Source: Paludibacter sp. (GTDB lineage Bacteria; Bacteroidota; Bacteroidia; Bacteroidales; Paludibacteraceae). Taken from it: a stretch of DNA of 57,416 nt. The position numbers and the translations under genes were made by a program. This document shows, piece by piece, positions 6,535-45,037 of the stretch. Every line of letters begins with the position of its first letter. Position 1 is the stretch's first letter. The stretch covers positions 1-57,416 of the forward strand of contig JAQUYE010000007.1 in the NCBI GenBank assembly GCA_028691965.1. The letters run 5' to 3'. Below the pieces are notes generated by a model that saw only the letters and a program-made list of their open reading frames with translations, had not been told where the DNA came from and did not search any database.

Positions 6535-8870
6535 GAAAATCCATTCTGTATATTCTACTGCTGGGCATAGGATTATCAGCCTATAGTCAGGGTGTAATCG
6601 GAAAGTGGCGTACCCACCTGGCCTATAACAATGTAAATCAGATCGCTCAATCTAAATCGAAGATTTACGCGATAAGTGAGGGCTCGTTGTTTTCGGTAAG
6701 CAAACTCGACGGAGAAATAGAATTTTACAGTAAGATGAGCGGGTTGAACGATGGTAATATCCTTCAGATTGAATACGATGAAGCCAACGATCAACTTCTT
6801 ATCATCTATCAGAATGGGAATATTGACATTATGCAGGAGCAGGATGGAGTAGTTATCAATATACCGGACCTGTACCGGAAACAAATGAGCTCCAACAAAG
6901 CAATCAACGAGGTTAGCTTTGAAGGTAATTTCGCATACTTGTCATGCGACTTTGGAATTCTGCTGGTAAATATGCAGCGACAGGAAATTGTCGACACCTA
7001 TATTATCGGACAAGGAGGTGCTCAATCCAGGGTAATCTCTACCACTGTTCACGGAAATTCTATCTACTCCATTTCTGAAAACAAACTCCTTTCTGCTGAT
7101 GTCACGAAGCCTCATCTGTTGGTGAATTATGAATACTGGAATCAAGTGACTCAGGTTCCCGGATCAGGTGATTTTAAACAGGTGTTTACCTTTGCAGGAA
7201 AACTAATGCTGTTGCGGGGAGGAAAACTGTACCGTCAGGACGAAGACAGCTGGACGATGCTGGCTTCGGCACTGGATATCTACAAGGCAACTGTTTCGCA
7301 TGGATCCATCATCATTAACGACAAAACCAGTTATGTGTTTACGCTGAATGAACAGTTTGAGCTGGGGATTCAGCAAATTGTTGTTTCTGAAGATGTGGAA
7401 TACGATCAGGAAAACACTACCTTTTGGCTTGCGGGAGTGGAGATGGGGGTTGTATCTGCTAAAATAAGTGCAACAGCTCCTCCGGAACTCAACTATTATA
7501 AACCGAAAGGACCGGCAGTTAACACTCCCTATTCAATGACTTTTGCCGGTGAAAAGTTATTCGTGGTTCCCGGGGGGAGATGGGATGATTCCTACAATCG
7601 TCCCGGAGTTATCATGATTTACGAAAATGAACAATGGAAAAACATTCCGGCCATCACTTTTGAAGGTATTATTCAACAAGAGATCCCCTATCAACTTGCC
7701 CTCGACCTGGTTAATGTAGCTGTCAATCCAAACGACGATTCTCATTTCTTTGTTACCTCCTTTGGGTCCGGACTCTTTGAATTCAGAGACGATGCTTTCC
7801 ATAAATGGCATAACCATACCAATAGTACACTTACCAATGTAATTGCTTCAGTACCCTACCGCTATATCCGTCTGGATGGTGCCACCTTCGATACAGAAGG
7901 TAACTTGTGGCTCTGTAATATGTTCGACGCACATGCCATTAAGATTTTAAGTGCAGACGGAACCTGGAAGTCACTGCACTTTCCGGCTTCCAACAAGGCA
8001 ACTCTCGGTAATATCCTTATCAACAATCAGAATTCAAAACAGAAGTGGGTAAATTCGGTGCGTCACGAACCGGGACTGTTTATATGGGATGATAACGGTT
8101 CTATTGACGACCAGAGCGATGATAAAAGCATATTTCTTAATTCATTCCCCGACGTCGACAATGTTGGAAGCGATATACGACCGCAAAAAATCTTTACATT
8201 AAAACAGGATAAGAACGGAGTAATCTGGGCCGGAACCGACATCGGACCGCTTTTGTTCTACAACACTACCCGGGCTTTCGAAGCTGGTTATACCTGTTCA
8301 CGGGTAAAAATTCCCCGCAACGATGGTACTAACCAGGCCGACTACCTGCTCAAGAACGAAGAGGTGCAAGCTATTGCTATTGATGGTGCAAATCGCAAAT
8401 GGTTAGGTACAAGTACTTCGGGGGTATACCTGATGTCGGAGAACGGGCAGGAAACCATTCGTCATTTTACATCAGCCAATAGTCCGCTTTTATCAGATAA
8501 TATACTCTCTATCGCTATGAACCCGGTAAGCGGTGAAGTATTTTTCGGGACCAGTAATGGATTAATATCGTACCAGAGTGATGCTGCTGATGGTGCAGGT
8601 ACTTTTGAAAATGTATATGCCTATCCCAACCCTGTACGTGAAAATTACAACGGAATCATAACGATAACCGGATTAATGAATAACACGCAGGTGAAAATTA
8701 CCGATATCAACGGAAATCTGATCTATCAAACCATTTCGAATGGAAGTCTGGCTACCTGGGATGGAAAAGACAGTTCCGGACGTAAAGTGAATACCGGCAT
8801 TTACCTGGCAATATGTAACAGTGAAGACGGCTCTCAAAGTACGATTACAAAGATTATGGTAATAAACTGA
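6531..8870 (+). CDS. porZ: PorZ-like type IX secretion beta-propeller protein with C-terminal sorting domain
   Basis: 779 residues, close to Porphyromonas gingivalis PorZ. A signal peptide (about 1-20, ending AYSQ) is followed by two-component-regulator-type propeller repeats: short blades with repeated [16 protein letters not shown] and [12 protein letters not shown] motifs. Residues about 695-779 form a T9SS type A sorting domain ([10 protein letters not shown], then [12 protein letters not shown] and a GIYLAI strand). PorZ is a surface component of the attachment complex that delivers anionic LPS for anchoring of secreted cargo. Overlaps rdgB by 4 bp; a membrane protein follows after 6 bp. 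Confidence 0.85.
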
Positions 8871-15470: not shown

Positions 15471-16976
15471 ATGTTTTCAAAAAAGAAAATTGAAGACCAA
15501 CTACTCGTTATCTTCGGATCAAACGGGGATTTGGCTCGTCGTAAACTTTTGCCGGCCATTTATCAACTGTATACCGGTAATTTCCTGCCTGCCAATTTTG
15601 TAGTTGTGGGTGCCGGAAGTCAGGAAAAAGATGAAGATGCCTACCGAAATGATGTAGAAGCTGCCCTAACTGAATTCCTTCCACGCGAAATTGCCGCTCA
15701 GTCGGATAAGCTCCGGGAATTCCTGAAACGGGTTTACTATAAAAAAGTACACAATCAGACTACTAACGATTTTGAAGGTCTTCGCGATTATCTGTATGAC
15801 TTATCCGACAAACTGGAGATTCGGCGCAATATTATTTATTACTTTTCTATCCCTCCTTTCCTGTATGAAACTGTGGCCTTTAACCTGGTTCAGTATGGTC
15901 TGAATAATGAGGAAGAAGGTTGGAAACGAATTATTGTTGAGAAACCTTTCGGATATAGCTACGACACGGCCATCGAACTGGATAAAAAGCTCCACAACGG
16001 ATTCAATGAAGACCAGATTTACCGCATCGACCACTACCTGGGTAAGGAAACGGTTCAGAATATAATGGTTACCCGCTTTTATAACGGATTCTTCGAACCT
16101 ATCTGGAACCGTAAGTACATCGATCGCGTCGAGATTACTGCTGCCGAGAAAATTGGCGTCAGTGGACGGGGAGGCTATTACGACGACTCAGGTGCTTTAC
16201 GTGATATGATACAGAATCATCTGCTTCAGGTGCTGGCAGTAGTGGCTATGGAACCTCCGGCTATATTCGACTCTGACTCCATCCGTAACGAAACGGTAAA
16301 AGTTCTACAGGCATTGCGCCCCATAAAAGGCAGTGAAGTTGCACAGCAGGTTGTTCGCGGACAATACATTGCCACTCAGGTTAACGATACACTCCACCAG
16401 GGTTATCGTCAGGAACAGGGAGTAGCTCCTAACTCAAAGACTGAAACATTTGTGGCAATAAAAGCCTTTATCGACAACTGGAGATGGGGTGATGTTCCTT
16501 TTTACATCCGTACCGGCAAGCACCTGCCTGCCCGCGTTACAGAAGTAGTCATTCATTTGAAGCATGCTCCTCACCAGTTATTTAAGCAGCTTTGTCTGAC
16601 CCAGCCTAATAATATGATTATTCTTCGTATCCACCCGGATGCCGGAATAGCAATTGACTTCGGAATGAAAATTCCCGGTGCGGGATACAAGGTTCATAAT
16701 GTGGAAATGGCTTTTAAGTATGCCGATCTGGCCGAAACAAAGATACCGGAGGCCTACGAGCGACTCTTACTTGATTGTATGGTGGGTGATTCGACACTCT
16801 ATGCACGTGCGGATGCTGTAAAAGCTTCCTGGAAATTTGTAGATCCCATCATTCAGGCATGGCAGGTAAACACCAACATTCCCTTGTATTTTTACGAATG
16901 CAATACCTGGGGGCCACTCGAAGCTAACACCCTATTCGGGGATAGTTATATGAAGTGGAGAGAACCGAAAGAATAA
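15471..16976 (+). CDS. zwf: Glucose-6-phosphate 1-dehydrogenase
   Basis: 501 residues. The NADP-binding loop is FGSNGDLARRKLLPA (15-29) and the active-site block is RIDHYLGKE (185-193), with catalytic His and Lys in place. It oxidises glucose 6-phosphate to 6-phosphogluconolactone, making NADPH. The next enzyme, pgl, follows with its true start 11 bp after this stop. The usual third member of the oxidative pentose-phosphate cluster, gnd, is not adjacent: the upstream neighbour is an M23 peptidase. Confidence 0.96.
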   Translation: MFSKKKIEDQLLVIFGSNGDLARRKLLPAIYQLYTGNFLPANFVVVGAGSQEKDEDAYRNDVEAALTEFLPREIAAQSDKLREFLKRVYYKKVHNQTTNDFEGLRDYLYDLSDKLEIRRNIIYYFSIPPFLYETVAFNLVQYGLNNEEEGWKRIIVEKPFGYSYDTAIELDKKLHNGFNEDQIYRIDHYLGKETVQNIMVTRFYNGFFEPIWNRKYIDRVEITAAEKIGVSGRGGYYDDSGALRDMIQNHLLQVLAVVAMEPPAIFDSDSIRNETVKVLQALRPIKGSEVAQQVVRGQYIATQVNDTLHQGYRQEQGVAPNSKTETFVAIKAFIDNWRWGDVPFYIRTGKHLPARVTEVVIHLKHAPHQLFKQLCLTQPNNMIILRIHPDAGIAIDFGMKIPGAGYKVHNVEMAFKYADLAETKIPEAYERLLLDCMVGDSTLYARADAVKASWKFVDPIIQAWQVNTNIPLYFYECNTWGPLEANTLFGDSYMKWREPKE

Positions 16977-29969: not shown

Positions 29970-30128
29970 TTACATCTTGTGACGACCTTCATCGGCTACA
30001 GTTAATTTACTTCTGCCTTTAGCGCGACGAGCGGCCAATACACGACGACCGTTTGCTGTTGCCATTCTTTCACGAAATCCGTGTTTGTTTCTTCTTTTTC
30101 TGTTAGAAGGTTGAAATGTCCTTTTCAT
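29970..30128 (-). CDS. rpmH: 50S ribosomal protein L34
   Basis: A 52-residue protein, very basic. It starts [20 protein letters not shown], the invariant L34 N-terminus, and ends in VADEGRHKM, a Bacteroidota-style tail. L34 is a small structural protein of the large subunit. In many bacteria rpmH sits next to dnaA and rnpA near the origin; here neither is adjacent, but the candidate origin signals at 33.5 kb are close. It has its own promoter (30170-30200) and terminator. Confidence 0.97.
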
Positions 30129-32520: not shown

Positions 32521-32563
32521 TTCAGGCTGATCGGGTGGTTTATAGCTTCCCGTTCAGCCTGAA
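32521..32563. terminator. Inverted repeat between convergent genes, likely bidirectional terminator
   Basis: 15-bp arms at 32521-32535 and 32549-32563 (ttcaggctga.cggg) with a single mismatch and a 13-base loop. It lies 23 bp after the DUF4954 stop and overlaps the last codons of the SDR gene (stop at 32540). No long T-run follows on either strand, so termination is inferred from position and stem strength. Confidence 0.6.
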
Positions 32564-33517
32564 CCATTCCAGTGCATCAGCAATTGCTGTATCTACCGGT
32601 GCATCGCTTAGCTCCAGGACTGTATCGGCTTTTGTAGATGAATAATACTCCCGGATAAGGAGTTGCCTCACATTGCGCGTACTCAGATCCACCGGAATAC
32701 CCATCCACCGGATAAAATCTCCTGCTCTGCCTGCCAACAGGATAAGCCAATCCGGTAGTTGTAGTAGTTTCTGAGGATAGGCTCCTACCCTTTTCAAACG
32801 CTTATAGAAGTCCTGAAACGACAGGTTCTCTCCTCCTACCAGGTAATGTTCTCCCGACTCTCCTTTGTAGAGTGCATTGCAGCAGGCAAGAGCTACTTTT
32901 TGCACGGATACAAAATTCTTACCTCCTTTTGGCACAAACATCAGTCTTTTTCTATACCCCATCACGATTAACCTGCCTGAGCTTGGTTTACTGTCGTGCG
33001 AGCCAATCATAAAAGCCGGATGTATAATAATTACTTCTATTCCCCTGTTGGCTGACTCTTTTTCAAGCAGAAGCTCCGTTTGTTTTTTACTTAGTGCATA
33101 CCACGAATCGCTAAATGGTTTGCTGATGGGAGTCGTTTCATCAGCCGGCAAATCTTCAGAGCCGTATCCAAGTGTATTTACAGTGCTAACATAAATAAGT
33201 CGTTTTACCTTTGCCTGCTTGCATGCCTTCAATAATGTGGAAACAGCTGCTGTATTTACCCTGAAATACTCATCCGGTTTTAGTAAATTTGTAGCTGTTA
33301 CTGCTGCACTGTGTATTACGGCATCGCATCCATCAACAGCATCCTGTAATGTCGATGCACTTGTAAAATCACCTTTTACTATTTCAAGTGATTCTGTGTC
33401 GACAGTCAGCTTAGAAGTTGAACGAACAATAATGCGAACTTGCTCGTTACTTTTCTGTAAGTGAGTAACTATGTGATGACCTAACAGTCCGGTAGCACCG
33501 GTTACAAGTACTTTCAT
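32540..33517 (-). CDS. NAD(P)-dependent epimerase/dehydratase-like SDR
   Basis: 325 residues from the ATG at 33517 (MKVLVTGATGLLGHHIV); the longer start at 33610 would extend through the DnaA-box-like cluster. An extended short-chain dehydrogenase: nucleotide loop GATGLLG (7-13), an HSAAV strand, an STVNTLGYG catalytic Ser/Thr region, and YALSK as the YxxxK catalytic pair. The C-terminal part is like dihydroflavonol-4-reductase/ hopanoid-associated epimerases, with substrate not predictable. Divergent from nadA across the origin-like intergenic region. Confidence 0.87.
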   Translation of the reverse strand: MKVLVTGATGLLGHHIVTHLQKSNEQVRIIVRSTSKLTVDTESLEIVKGDFTSASTLQDAVDGCDAVIHSAAVTATNLLKPDEYFRVNTAAVSTLLKACKQAKVKRLIYVSTVNTLGYGSEDLPADETTPISKPFSDSWYALSKKQTELLLEKESANRGIEVIIIHPAFMIGSHDSKPSSGRLIVMGYRKRLMFVPKGGKNFVSVQKVALACCNALYKGESGEHYLVGGENLSFQDFYKRLKRVGAYPQKLLQLPDWLILLAGRAGDFIRWMGIPVDLSTRNVRQLLIREYYSSTKADTVLELSDAPVDTAIADALEWFRLNGKL

Positions 33518-33966
33518 TGCTAACGTGTAATGATTGATAGTACAAAGTTGATAAAAACATCTTAATAAATGGTTGATAACTGTTGATAAAAAGTGAATAG
33601 ATTTTGACAAGTATCGCTTTGCTATTTCAACCCTAAATTCTCTTAATCAATTTTATTTCTTTGGCAAATTTTTAATTGTTTTTTTACATACTAAGTTTTA
33701 AACTTCAATTTTAGCTTTATCAACAAGGGTTTCGCGAAAACTTACTAACTTTGCAACTATCAACAGTCTGTTAATAACATTCACAGGAAACTGATAATAA
33801 AGCGATAAGTAATGTTAGTACTTGTTGATTACATTTGATTTTATATTGATAACTAATAGTACAACCAAAAGTGATAATTTTATCAACTTCGTTAACACCC
33901 TATTAGTATTATCATATAGTTTTTTTAAAAGTAAAAAATATAATATTAATATATAGTGTTGTTGAA
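33518..33966. other. Candidate chromosomal replication origin: DnaA-box-like cluster and A/T-rich stretch
   Basis: 449 bp without a gene. TTATCAAC (one change from the DnaA box TTATCCAC) occurs on either strand at 33546-33554, 33571-33579, 33581-33589, 33717-33725 and 33880-33888. Single-mismatch versions lie at 33757-33765, 33823-33831 and 33844-33852. A perfect palindrome TTTCGCGAAA is at 33730-33739. Immediately after the last box, 33901-33960 has 54 A/T of 60 bases and could be an unwinding element. A TAACTTTG -7-like box at 33746-33753 may serve nadA. The layout resembles an oriC, but binding by DnaA is inferred. Confidence 0.5.
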
Positions 33967-34899
33967 ATGATGGAAAAAGATAAACTTGTTTCCGAAATTC
34001 TTCGGTTGAAGAAGGAAAAAAACGCTGTTATAATGGCTCACTATTATCAGACAGCTGATATACAGGATATTGCTGATATTATTGGGGATAGTCTGGCACT
34101 TGCTCAATGGGCAGCTAAGACCGAAGCAGATGTTATCGTACTGTGCGGAGTTCACTTCATGGGAGAAACTGCCAAGATTCTTTCTCCTGATAAGAAGGTA
34201 TTGATACCCGATTTTGCTGCCGGTTGTTCGCTGGCAGATAGTTGTCCTGCCGATGAGTTTGAGAAATTCGTAAAAGCTCATCCCGACCATACTGTAATAT
34301 CGTATGTAAATACAACTGCTGCTGTAAAGGCACTGACAGATGTGGTTGTTACTTCTACCAATGCCAAGAAGATAGTTGATCAGTTTCCTGCCGATGCAAA
34401 GTTAATTTTCGGTCCTGATAAGAACCTTGGTAATTACATTAATAGTGTTACCGGCCGTGAAATGCTTTTATGGGATGGTGCCTGTCATGTACATGAACAA
34501 TTTTCGCTCGAAAAACTGCTCCAACTAAAGGAAGAACATCCCGATGCTGCTATCATTGCTCACCCCGAATGTAAACGTCCTCTTTTATTAACGGCCGATT
34601 TCATAGGCTCTACCCAGGCATTACTTAATTACACCATACAATCCGACAAAACGAAGTTTTTGGTAGCTACCGAAGCAGGAATTCTTCACGAAATGCAGAA
34701 GAAAAGTCCGGATAAGGTATTTATACCCGTACCACCAAACGACAGTACCTGTGGCTGCAATGATTGCAATTTCATGAAACTGAATACGCTTGAGAAGTTA
34801 TACCTCTGTCTGAAAAACGAAAACCCTGAAATTCTCGTTGATGAGGAAATCAGGGTTAAAGCGGTAAAGCCGATTATTCGTATGCTCGAAATGTCTTAA
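33967..34899 (+). CDS. nadA: Quinolinate synthase
   Basis: 310 residues, the short NadA form. Three cysteines fitting the 4Fe-4S cluster ligands are visible: Cys87 (AGCSLADSC region), Cys173 ([10 protein letters not shown]) and a C-terminal one in [12 protein letters not shown] (Cys264 or Cys267). [20 protein letters not shown] is the N-terminal substrate region. It condenses iminoaspartate with dihydroxyacetone phosphate to quinolinate in NAD synthesis. nadB and nadC are not in the window. Either ATG at 33967 or 33970 may be used. The stop overlaps the U32 stop on the other strand. Confidence 0.96.
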
Positions 34900-40454: not shown

Positions 40455-40472
40455 ACGTTCCACGTGGAACGT
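40455..40472. promoter_or_regulatory. parS site 1 (ParB-binding centromere)
   Basis: An 18-bp perfect palindrome ACGTTCCACGTGGAACGT. The 14-bp core GTTCCACGTGGAAC equals the core of the Pseudomonas-type parS TGTTCCACGTGGAACA and one arm-substitution from the B. subtilis form. It lies between the uvrC start and the mnmG stop. Confidence 0.85.
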
Positions 40473-40480
40473 TTTATTTA

Positions 40481-40496
40481 TGTTCCACGTGGAACT
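40481..40496. promoter_or_regulatory. parS site 2 (ParB-binding centromere)
   Basis: TGTTCCACGTGGAACT: the same 14-bp palindromic core (40482-40495), 15 of 16 positions of the classic parS. Its centre is 25 bp from that of site 1, so the two form a tandem pair. Confidence 0.87.
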
Positions 40497-40501
40497 ATGT
40501 T

Positions 40502-42376
40502 TTACCTACCCAATAAAACAAGTAAAACATTCACATCGCTTGGCGAAATACCGGGTATTCTACTCGCTTGTCCTATTGTTTCGGGGTTAATTTTAATTAG
40601 TTTTTGTCGTGCTTCTGTTGAGAGCGACTGTATGCTGGCATAATCCACTCTGCCCGTCAGGGGAATGTTTTCAAGCCGAAGTAATTTTTGGGCAATCAAT
40701 CGTTCACGTTCAATATAGCCTTCGTATTTAATAATAACTTCAGCAGCTTCAATAATTTCTTCACGGCGTGAAGGTAGTTCGTCAATCTTTTTCTGTAGTC
40801 CCGGTACAGCTCCTGCCAGTTCAGTAATTCCGAATTGAGGGCGTAGTATTAGATCGTACAGCTTACATCCATGTCTTAACTCTGCAGAGTTCTTATCCTG
40901 CAGAAAGTCTTTCACCTGTTGTGGCTTTACGGAGTAGTTTTTGACAAACTCAATCAGCTTTTCTATATCCTGTTTTTTAGTAGTAAACTGATCGTACCGA
41001 TCTTGTTTTACAAGTCCGATTGAATATCCTTTGGGAGTGAGTCGCACATCAGCATCATCTTGTCGAAGCAACAAGCGATATTCGGCACGGGAGGTAAACA
41101 TCCGATAAGGTTCGTCAACGCCTTTTGTTACCAGGTCGTCGATAAGAACTCCAATATAGGCTTCATCGCGTCCCAAAATGAATGGAGTGCCACCCGTACA
41201 GTTTTGATGAGCATTAATGCCGGCTATGATTCCCTGGCCGGCAGCTTCCTCGTAGCCAGTAGTACCGTTTATTTGTCCCGCGAAAAACAGATTCTTAATC
41301 AGCTTTGTCTCGAGTGTATGGTTTAGTTGAGTAGGATCAAAGAAATCGTATTCGATAGCATACCCCGGGCGGTAGAGTTGTGCATTTTCAAGTCCGGGAA
41401 CGGTTTGTATGGCCCGTATCTGAACATCGAGTGGGAGAGAGGAGGAGAACCCGTTTACGTAATATTCCTGCGAATCCACACCTTCCGGTTCGAGGAATAG
41501 CTGGTGAGCAGTTTTGTCGGCAAAGGTGATAATTTTAGTTTCGATACTCGGACAATATCGCGGTCCGATGCTCTGGATTTGGCCGTTGTATAAGGGCGAA
41601 AAAGCAAGACCTTCGCGAAGTATTTCATGCGTCTTTTCGTTCGTATAGGTAATCCAGCAGCTCATCTGTTTTAGATTCCTGCCTACACCTTCCAGAAATG
41701 AAAATTTATGAAAATCATTTTCTCCCTGTTGTTCACTCATTTTCGAGAAGTCGATGGTTCGTCCGTCAATGCGACAGGGAGTACCTGTTTTCATTCGATC
41801 GGTTCGGAATCCTATCGACTTTAATTGTTCTGTGAGACCGTAGGAGGCCGGCTCGGAGATACGACCACCTGCCTGCTGCTTCTTACCAATGTGAAGTAAG
41901 CCTGTAAGGAAGGTGCCAGCCGTAAGGATAACAGCTTTTGTCCTGATGGTAACACCAAGGGCTGTGGTAACTCCGGTTACCTGCCCGTTCTCAAATTCGA
42001 GTCCGGTGACAGTGTCCTGCCAAAGGTATAAATTGGGAGTATTGGTGATTATTTTAATCCATTCCTGAATAAATTGATGACGATCACTCTGCGAGCGGGG
42101 GCTCCACATGGCTGGTCCCTTTGATCGGTTCAGCATGCGAAACTGGATAGCACTGCGGTCGGTAACAATTCCCATCTGACCGCCAAGCGCATCTACTTCC
42201 CTGACAATCTGACCCTTAGCTATTCCGCCTACGGCCGGATTACAACTCATCTGACCAATCTTATTCATATCCATAGTGATCAGAAGAGTCTTCGAACCCA
42301 GGTTTGCCGAGGCACAAGCAGCTTCATTTCCGGCATGTCCTGCACCAATTACTACAACATCGTATGTAAAATCCAT
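40502..42376 (-). CDS. mnmG: tRNA uridine-5-carboxymethylaminomethyl modification enzyme MnmG (GidA)
   Basis: 624 residues, full length. The FAD-binding loop is GAGHAGNEAACA (11-22); CNPAVGGIAKGQIVREVDALGG, KTGTPCRIDGRTIDF and RAEYRLLLRQDNAD-like RAEYRLLLRQDDADVRL are the standard MnmG blocks. With MnmE it builds the cmnm5 group at the wobble U34 of tRNAs. mnmG is often origin-proximal in other bacteria, matching the parS sites at its 3' end. A TACTTTTG -7 box facing this gene lies at 42405-42398. Confidence 0.97.
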   Translation of the reverse strand: MDFTYDVVVIGAGHAGNEAACASANLGSKTLLITMDMNKIGQMSCNPAVGGIAKGQIVREVDALGGQMGIVTDRSAIQFRMLNRSKGPAMWSPRSQSDRHQFIQEWIKIITNTPNLYLWQDTVTGLEFENGQVTGVTTALGVTIRTKAVILTAGTFLTGLLHIGKKQQAGGRISEPASYGLTEQLKSIGFRTDRMKTGTPCRIDGRTIDFSKMSEQQGENDFHKFSFLEGVGRNLKQMSCWITYTNEKTHEILREGLAFSPLYNGQIQSIGPRYCPSIETKIITFADKTAHQLFLEPEGVDSQEYYVNGFSSSLPLDVQIRAIQTVPGLENAQLYRPGYAIEYDFFDPTQLNHTLETKLIKNLFFAGQINGTTGYEEAAGQGIIAGINAHQNCTGGTPFILGRDEAYIGVLIDDLVTKGVDEPYRMFTSRAEYRLLLRQDDADVRLTPKGYSIGLVKQDRYDQFTTKKQDIEKLIEFVKNYSVKPQQVKDFLQDKNSAELRHGCKLYDLILRPQFGITELAGAVPGLQKKIDELPSRREEIIEAAEVIIKYEGYIERERLIAQKLLRLENIPLTGRVDYASIQSLSTEARQKLIKINPETIGQASRIPGISPSDVNVLLVLLGR

Positions 42377-44806: not shown

Positions 44807-44883
44807 AATACTTTTTGGTCCATAATTTAACATATAACACTTAACACATAACACTTAAAAATTCAACCCTGTGTGAGTAACCG

Positions 44884-45037
44884 GCATATGTCATATGATA
44901 AATCCGCATATGTCATATAACAGATTCCCATATGTCATGTAACAGACCCGCATATGTCATATGACAAACCCGCATATGACATATGGCAGTTGCGCACATG
45001 ACATATAACGAACCCGCACATGACATATGCGGGTTTG
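44884..45037. repeat. Tandem array of seven 22-bp units with CATATG palindromes
   Basis: Seven consecutive units of exactly 22 bp. Units 1-4 (44884-44971) carry CATATGTCATATG or close variants with T at the centre; units 5-7 (44972-45037) carry CATATGACATATG-like cores, the reverse complement, with A at the centre. Tails are CA/T-rich (gacaaaccc, aacgaaccc types). Unit 7 ends in gcgggtttg, complementary to the acccgc joints, so hairpins such as 45011-45018 with 45028-45035 can form. Confidence 0.9.

Follow-up and report, generated by a model that had tools for sequence, protein, structure and literature searches.

A predicted chromosomal replication origin upstream of nadA in Paludibacter, with a variant DnaA-box cluster and a conserved internal layout

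In the oriC of Escherichia coli, a strong DnaA box stands at the edge of the unwinding region, and both transcription and gidA are found near the origin. An oriC lying far from dnaA has been reported as common in Bacteroidetes (PMC4755523), so that part of the arrangement described here is not new. For Porphyromonas gingivalis and related genomes, one figure legend sets oriC at the initial nucleotide of dnaA (PMC5771137). The BUS rule calls for a box with at most 2 mismatches, a tandem box with at most 4, and at least 3 NAN trios within 16 bp (PMC8287927). The nonamer TTATCAACA has earlier been named a DnaA box in other phyla (PMC3322544, PMC4674748), and in this literature the authors of the phytoplasma paper doubt that the motif covers the real box (PMC3322544/PMC4674748). 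The -7 consensus of sigma-ABfr is given as TAnnTTTG, and its -33 TTTG motif could not be identified in Flavobacterium johnsoniae (PMC7366714). Among the titles and abstract openings of the literature searched, DoriC entries aside, neither linkage of an origin to nadA nor the fixed layout reported below was found.

The window, the whole 57,416-nucleotide stretch of Paludibacter sp. DNA analyzed here, has a 449-bp gap (33518-33966) between an SDR-type gene and nadA. With high confidence, this region upstream of nadA is the chromosomal replication origin oriC, at which initiation is predicted. A preliminary description had proposed the same reading of the gap, and it is supported by the GC skew of relatives and by the conservation of the boxes and their layout. 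The element belongs to a known class, of which it is a conserved case, and is not a new kind of system. Its features are collected in Table 1.

Table 1. Features of the predicted origin and its surroundings (window coordinates)
Feature	Position	Strand	Basis
Predicted oriC, intergenic, DnaA-box cluster and unwinding region	33518..33966	.	shuffles, stability, conservation in relatives
Predicted DnaA box TTATCAACT	33546..33554	-	sequence
Predicted DnaA box TTATCAACC	33571..33579	-	in upstream box-like cluster of alignment A1
Predicted DnaA box TTATCAACA	33581..33589	-	sequence, alignment A1
Predicted DnaA box TTATCAACA	33717..33725	+	sequence
TAACTTTG, TAnnTTTG, sigma-ABfr -7-like, directed toward nadA	33746..33753	+	alignment A4, relatives
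Predicted DnaA box CTATCAACA, plus-strand half of inverted pair	33757..33765	+	alignment A4
Predicted DnaA box TTATTAACA, minus-strand half of inverted pair	33769..33777	-	alignment A4
Weak box TAATCAACA, in less conserved middle	33823..33831	-	sequence, alignment
Predicted BUS upstream DnaA box TTATCAACT	33880..33888	+	sequence, relatives
BUS second box TCGTTAACA, weak, tandem	33889..33897	+	sequence, relatives
DnaA-trio-like run CTA TTA GTA TTA TCA (bottom 3'-GAT AAT CAT AAT AGT-5')	33900..33914	+	rule of PMC8287927
Predicted AT-rich unwinding region	33901..33960	.	least stable 60-mer of the window
nadA, quinolinate synthase, linked to oriC in genus and part of order	33967..34899	+	
NAD-dependent epimerase-like (SDR) gene, other flank; ATG at 33517 assumed	32540..33517	-	
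parS-like palindrome CGTTCCACGTGGAACG	40456..40471	.	
parS-like palindrome TGTTCCACGTGGAACT	40481..40496	.	
Presumed rpmH (ribosomal protein L34), origin-proximal gene	29970..30128	-	translation
mnmG (gidA), origin-proximal gene	40502..42376	-	

Five exact TTATCAAC cores are found in the gap, at 33547, 33572 and 33582 on the minus strand and at 33717 and 33880 on the plus strand. Four further copies carry one mismatch: 33757(+), 33770(-), 33824(-) and 33845(-). The preliminary description was right about the five cores but counted only three one-mismatch copies. The low background it described, with single copies at 8017 and 12464, also holds, but two more copies outside the gap, at 15560 and 49497, had gone unlisted. 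The TTATCAAC total of the window is thus nine, against 2.99 expected, a count reached in 0 of 100 shuffles. TTATNCACA is absent from the 449-bp region. The GC content of the region is 24.7%, versus 43.3% for the window. Easily melted AT-rich DNA adjoins the boxes: 33901-33960 is the least stable 60-mer of the entire window, and the 400 bp starting at 33556 are its least stable 400-mer. In 8-mer clustering, only tandem repeats at 44.9 kb score as high as the gap. About seven 22-bp repeats of AACCCGCATATGTCATATGACA type (77% matches) stand in an array at 44879-45029, downstream of htpG.

Boxes and layout alike are retained within the genus and in some of the other families, as the preliminary description had asked of relatives. 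Upstream regions of nadA from 24 congeners form alignment A1, and 29 aligned upstream regions were available altogether, 26 of the genus and 3 from other families. Alignment A4 has 27 rows; L032 (from genome G058), in which the usual spacing yielded no promoter element, was dropped, as was L031 (G046), whose spacing is 155 versus the usual 142-144. A sequence-only profile (R1) was built from 27 regions, those of the window, 25 congeners and G037, and applied to 35 genomes. In a set of 35 congeners NadA was found in 27, and every one of these has the element upstream of nadA: the 24 of A1 plus L029, G029 (through L005) and G012. Twenty-five of these congeners trained the profile, and their membership rests on the alignment. 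Only one of the eight congeners in which NadA was not found, G030, has a strong element, at a contig end; the profile gave nothing convincing in the other seven, three of which are at least 97% complete (G009, G024 and G025).

In 10 of 24 genomes from other families the element is directly upstream of nadA (G037, G040, G042, G045, G046, G051, G055, G056, G058 and G059), the matches of G045 (E 0.006) and G056 (E 0.001) being weak and G058 having a second, partial match (E 1.9e-4) 0.7 kb from the first. In two others the element and nadA are on different contigs, the element lying at C133:138571-138781 in G054 (L069, E 6e-12) and at C115:22754-22942 in G057 (L074, E 8e-7), which suggests that the origin or nadA was relocated in these families. 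The neighbor of the element is an sppA-like gene in G054 and an rpiB-like gene in G057 (names assigned by eye). The profile found no convincing element in the remaining 12 of the 24, including G049, whose partial match (E 4.5e-4) overlaps coding frames and was counted as none. Among named genomes, 27 of the best 80 of 589 NadA loci have an upstream match at E <=0.01, with L119, L142 and L154 weak, and 53 of the 80 have none at E 0.01; L127 offers just 219 bp of upstream sequence. Within the same best 80 of 589, Bacteroidales-titled loci, counted by title and with Candidatus Minthosoma not included, were matched in 24 of 43 cases and unmatched in 19. In 776,584 bases from 42 sources the profile matched only five loci, all at inferred origins, three of them training sequences and two (L005 and L206) independent. 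In G000 (second match at E 0.085) and in G016 the element is single in copy, with one strong match each.

The genome of the window is a 3.04-Mb draft in 167 contigs with 89% completeness, and its own skew therefore could not be followed. Within the window the skew is blunt; its best single change point is at 36.5 kb and its cumulative minimum at 41.3 kb. The GC skew, which the preliminary description had named as a check, turns near the element in the congeners G016 and G033. The single-contig congener G016 (3,685,504 bp) was sampled in 27 stretches rather than whole. Skew in its 20-kb samples is above zero between 2.78 Mb and, past the start of the record, 0.57 Mb, apart from a value close to zero at 3.33 Mb; samples between 0.74 and 2.04 Mb are negative, and those at 2.22, 2.41 and 2.59 Mb are close to zero. 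Because of these near-zero values and a slightly negative skew again at 2.57-2.61 Mb, the samples alone do not pin the global minimum. In an unbroken 160 kb (2.435-2.595 Mb), the local cumulative minimum falls at about 2.524 Mb (sums made by hand); the element occupies 2,525,339-2,525,556, no more than about 2 kb away. The opposite sign change lies between the samples at 575 and 740 kb, and the antipode of the element is at 683 kb. In G033, the closest relative by NadA, most windows before 445.3 kb have a negative skew, and the four 10-kb windows beyond that point are all positive; the element is at about 441.1 kb, some 4 kb from the flip. In G054 the skew turns at 138.3 kb, next to the element at 138.57-138.78 kb, in a noisy curve with only 10 kb on the far side.

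The skew of the window, with its change point and minimum both on the nadA side, could be read as a sign that the box cluster is merely near the start point and that the true origin is kilobases off, perhaps at 36-41 kb in the neighborhood of parS and mnmG. This we consider very unlikely. The flip in G033 is displaced to the opposite side, away from nadA, so the offset is not consistent, and in G016 the minimum is no farther than about 2 kb from the element. The element itself has a BUS-like unit and the lowest stability, and its 8-mer clustering is equaled in the window by nothing but the 44.9-kb repeats.

The surroundings of the gap are also as first described. The genes said to stand on either side of it, mnmG and a gene whose translation we take to be rpmH (ribosomal protein L34), are at the positions given in Table 1, and the parS reported 6.5 kb away consists of two parS-like palindromes, set 25 bp apart and located between uvrC and mnmG. 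G016 has one exact parS core, 10.8 kb from nadA; none was found in 100 kb of G033 or in 60 kb of G054. The placement away from dnaA stands as well. In the genome of the window, dnaA is on another contig. The record of G016 has dnaA at its first bases, 1.16 Mb from the element, so its chromosome coordinates do not start at the inferred origin. An origin at dnaA was considered and rejected: the dnaA locus L002 has no TTATCAAC, and no profile match was obtained in L002 or L053-L056. Elsewhere in G016, at about 1.299 Mb (L040, 3754-4043), three TTATCAAC copies in one direction lie within 290 bp. This cluster has no profile match and is near neither the oriC nor the terminus of G016; it is possibly another kind of DnaA-binding cluster, or chance.

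By its alignment, the region is a mosaic of conserved and less conserved parts. Mean major-base frequency over 27 sequences is 0.97 in the -7-like element, 0.86 in the inverted box pair and 0.88 in the BUS, and falls to 0.67 in the DNA between the box pair and the BUS. The spacing is nearly constant. The sigma-ABfr-like TAnnTTTG precedes the BUS by 133-135 bp in 27 of the 29 aligned regions, the distance from TAACTTTGC to the BUS box being 134 bp in 20 of the 27, 135 in six and 133 in one; of the two regions outside this count, both from other families, one has a longer spacing and in the other the first element was not found. From region to region, however, the BUS stands at distances from the nadA start that differ by more than 150 bp. 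Six congeners (L007, L015, L017, L020, L025 and L026) have a longer BUS-nadA spacer than the others; thus the nadA start codon does not fix the position of the element.

The window has an octamer agreeing with the sigma-ABfr -7 consensus, and so does every one of the 27 rows of A4, where it takes the form TAATTTTG in L030. It recurs in 20 of the 27 named relatives (from the best 80 of 589 loci) with AC, AA or AT at the nn positions, a variability expected of a promoter. By eye, A1 shows no clear copy of TTTG at the distance expected for -33. Probably, this promoter element inside the origin starts the nadA transcript.

The variant box is real, as the preliminary description had suspected: the 29 aligned regions contain 49 copies of TTATCAACA, distributed over 25 regions, against 0.44 expected, and not one TTATCCACA. 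TTATNCACA occurs there three times, in two regions, with 1.29 expected. The minus-strand box of the inverted pair is TTATCAACA in 21 of the 26 congener rows of A4, the window included among the rows although its own box is TTATTAACA. The classical TTATCCACA appears at homologous positions in some Prevotella- and Bacteroidaceae-type relatives: the same pair box is TTATCCACA in the Prevotella-titled L123, L129 and L137 and the Prevotellaceae-titled L139, and so is the BUS box in L098, L099 and L142. This correspondence, the strongest sequence evidence of identity, identifies the boxes by homology as predicted DnaA boxes.

A preference of the lineage's DnaA for the variant box, also raised at the outset, finds no support in the recognition helix. 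The helix reads DHATV in the genome of the window versus DHTTV in five solved DnaA chains, the sole change being Ala for Thr. Of 22 DnaAs of the order (that of the window's genome and those of 21 of the 22 genomes searched, leaving aside a fragment in G046 and secondary, shorter matches of G042, G001 and G054), 20 have Ala (18 DHATV and 2 NHATV), one Thr and one Ser. A helix change as the cause of the variant box was rejected, this alanine being common to 20 of the 22. That homologous boxes are TTATCAACA within one genus but TTATCCACA among some of its relatives offers a natural experiment on DnaA specificity.

The placement of the block immediately before nadA, seen within the genus and in 10 of the 24 other-family genomes, and its TAnnTTTG element directed toward nadA would also suit a regulatory leader of that gene, a repressor operator or a structured RNA, with the link to replication incidental. 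Such a leader is very unlikely, and a nadA leader or riboswitch was rejected. In G054 and G057 the homologous elements are away from nadA, on other contigs; the distance to the nadA start is loose while the inner spacing of 27 of the 29 regions varies by only 1-2 bp; canonical TTATCCACA occupies homologous sites of relatives; and the GC skew turns nearby. Rfam, at its gathering thresholds, has no family matching the window, the consensus RNA structure has 0 pairs, and the fold z of -1.67 is weak. Chance matches in AT-rich DNA, for which only the 24.7% GC of the region speaks, are refuted by the conservation of the boxes among aligned regions and by composition-matched dinucleotide shuffles of the 449 bp, in which exact TTATCAAC averages 0.04 copies and 0 of 5000 reach the observed five, and copies with up to one mismatch average 1.03 and 0 of 1000 reach the observed nine. 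The region is best taken as a well-supported oriC with a conserved layout that deserves tests.

The nadA side of the region resembles a BUS. By eye, the tandem boxes TTATCAACT and TCGTTAACA have 2 and 4 mismatches to TTATCCACA, within the limits of the BUS rule; the first trio comes after an 11-bp spacer counted from the better box, and the bottom strand there reads GAT AAT CAT AAT, in agreement with the NAN rule, which is a loose one. A similar trio run is seen in relatives. We infer DnaA binding, melting and initiation at the 449-bp region in the following way. DnaA would bind the cluster of variant boxes, of the TTATCAACA type, spread over the region. On the nadA side, a stronger and a weaker tandem box would point to the trios and the AT-rich stretch, and an ATP-DnaA filament anchored on them would extend onto the single-stranded trios. 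The filament would melt 33901-33960, the helicase would load, and forks would leave bidirectionally.

A nadA transcript from the internal promoter would cross the unwinding region. We tentatively propose, as a doubtful idea, that the Bacteroidales origin is a module of fixed geometry in which promoter, inverted box pair and BUS are held at constant distances, with a nadA transcript that begins within oriC and passes through the unwinding region. NAD is a substrate of bacterial DNA ligase. If the proposal is true, occupancy by DnaA and transcription of nadA would influence one another and link NAD supply with initiation, and this link would account for the retention of nadA beside the origin across so many families of the order. 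The near-constant spacing of promoter element, box pair and BUS is directly testable. More generally, a sequence signature and a neighbor gene, nadA, can be used to locate the origin in an order with many gut bacteria, and a reliable origin aids coverage-based growth-rate estimates, skew analyses and genome numbering.

Comparison with known systems shows where the locus is familiar and where it departs. Like the predicted Bacteroidetes oriCs of DoriC and Ori-Finder, for example that of Prevotella intermedia OMA14 (PMC4755523), it is a box cluster at a GC-skew transition far from dnaA; the available text on OMA14 names no conserved neighbor gene, whereas the neighbor here is nadA. Its nonamer TTATCAACA is the same as that named DnaA box in the mollicutes TT(T/A)TCAACA box and in the linear chromosome of Cyanothece (PMC3322544, PMC4674748), lineages unrelated to this one. 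The BUS of Bacillus subtilis (PMC8287927) is matched in the tandem boxes with the better one upstream, in the trios starting 3'-GAT-5' and in the AT-rich DNA that follows, and the 11-bp spacer falls within the reported peak of about 10-13 (Pelliciari et al. 2021, PMC8287927). Unlike B. subtilis, the window has TTATCAAC-type boxes instead of TTATCCACA, adds an inverted box pair and TAnnTTTG at near-constant distance, and does not have its origin beside dnaA. The locus shares with E. coli oriC the strong box bordering the unwinding region in the same orientation, transcription nearby and gidA in the vicinity; it differs in its boxes and in its neighbors, mnmG (gidA) being 6.5 kb off and nadA adjacent instead.
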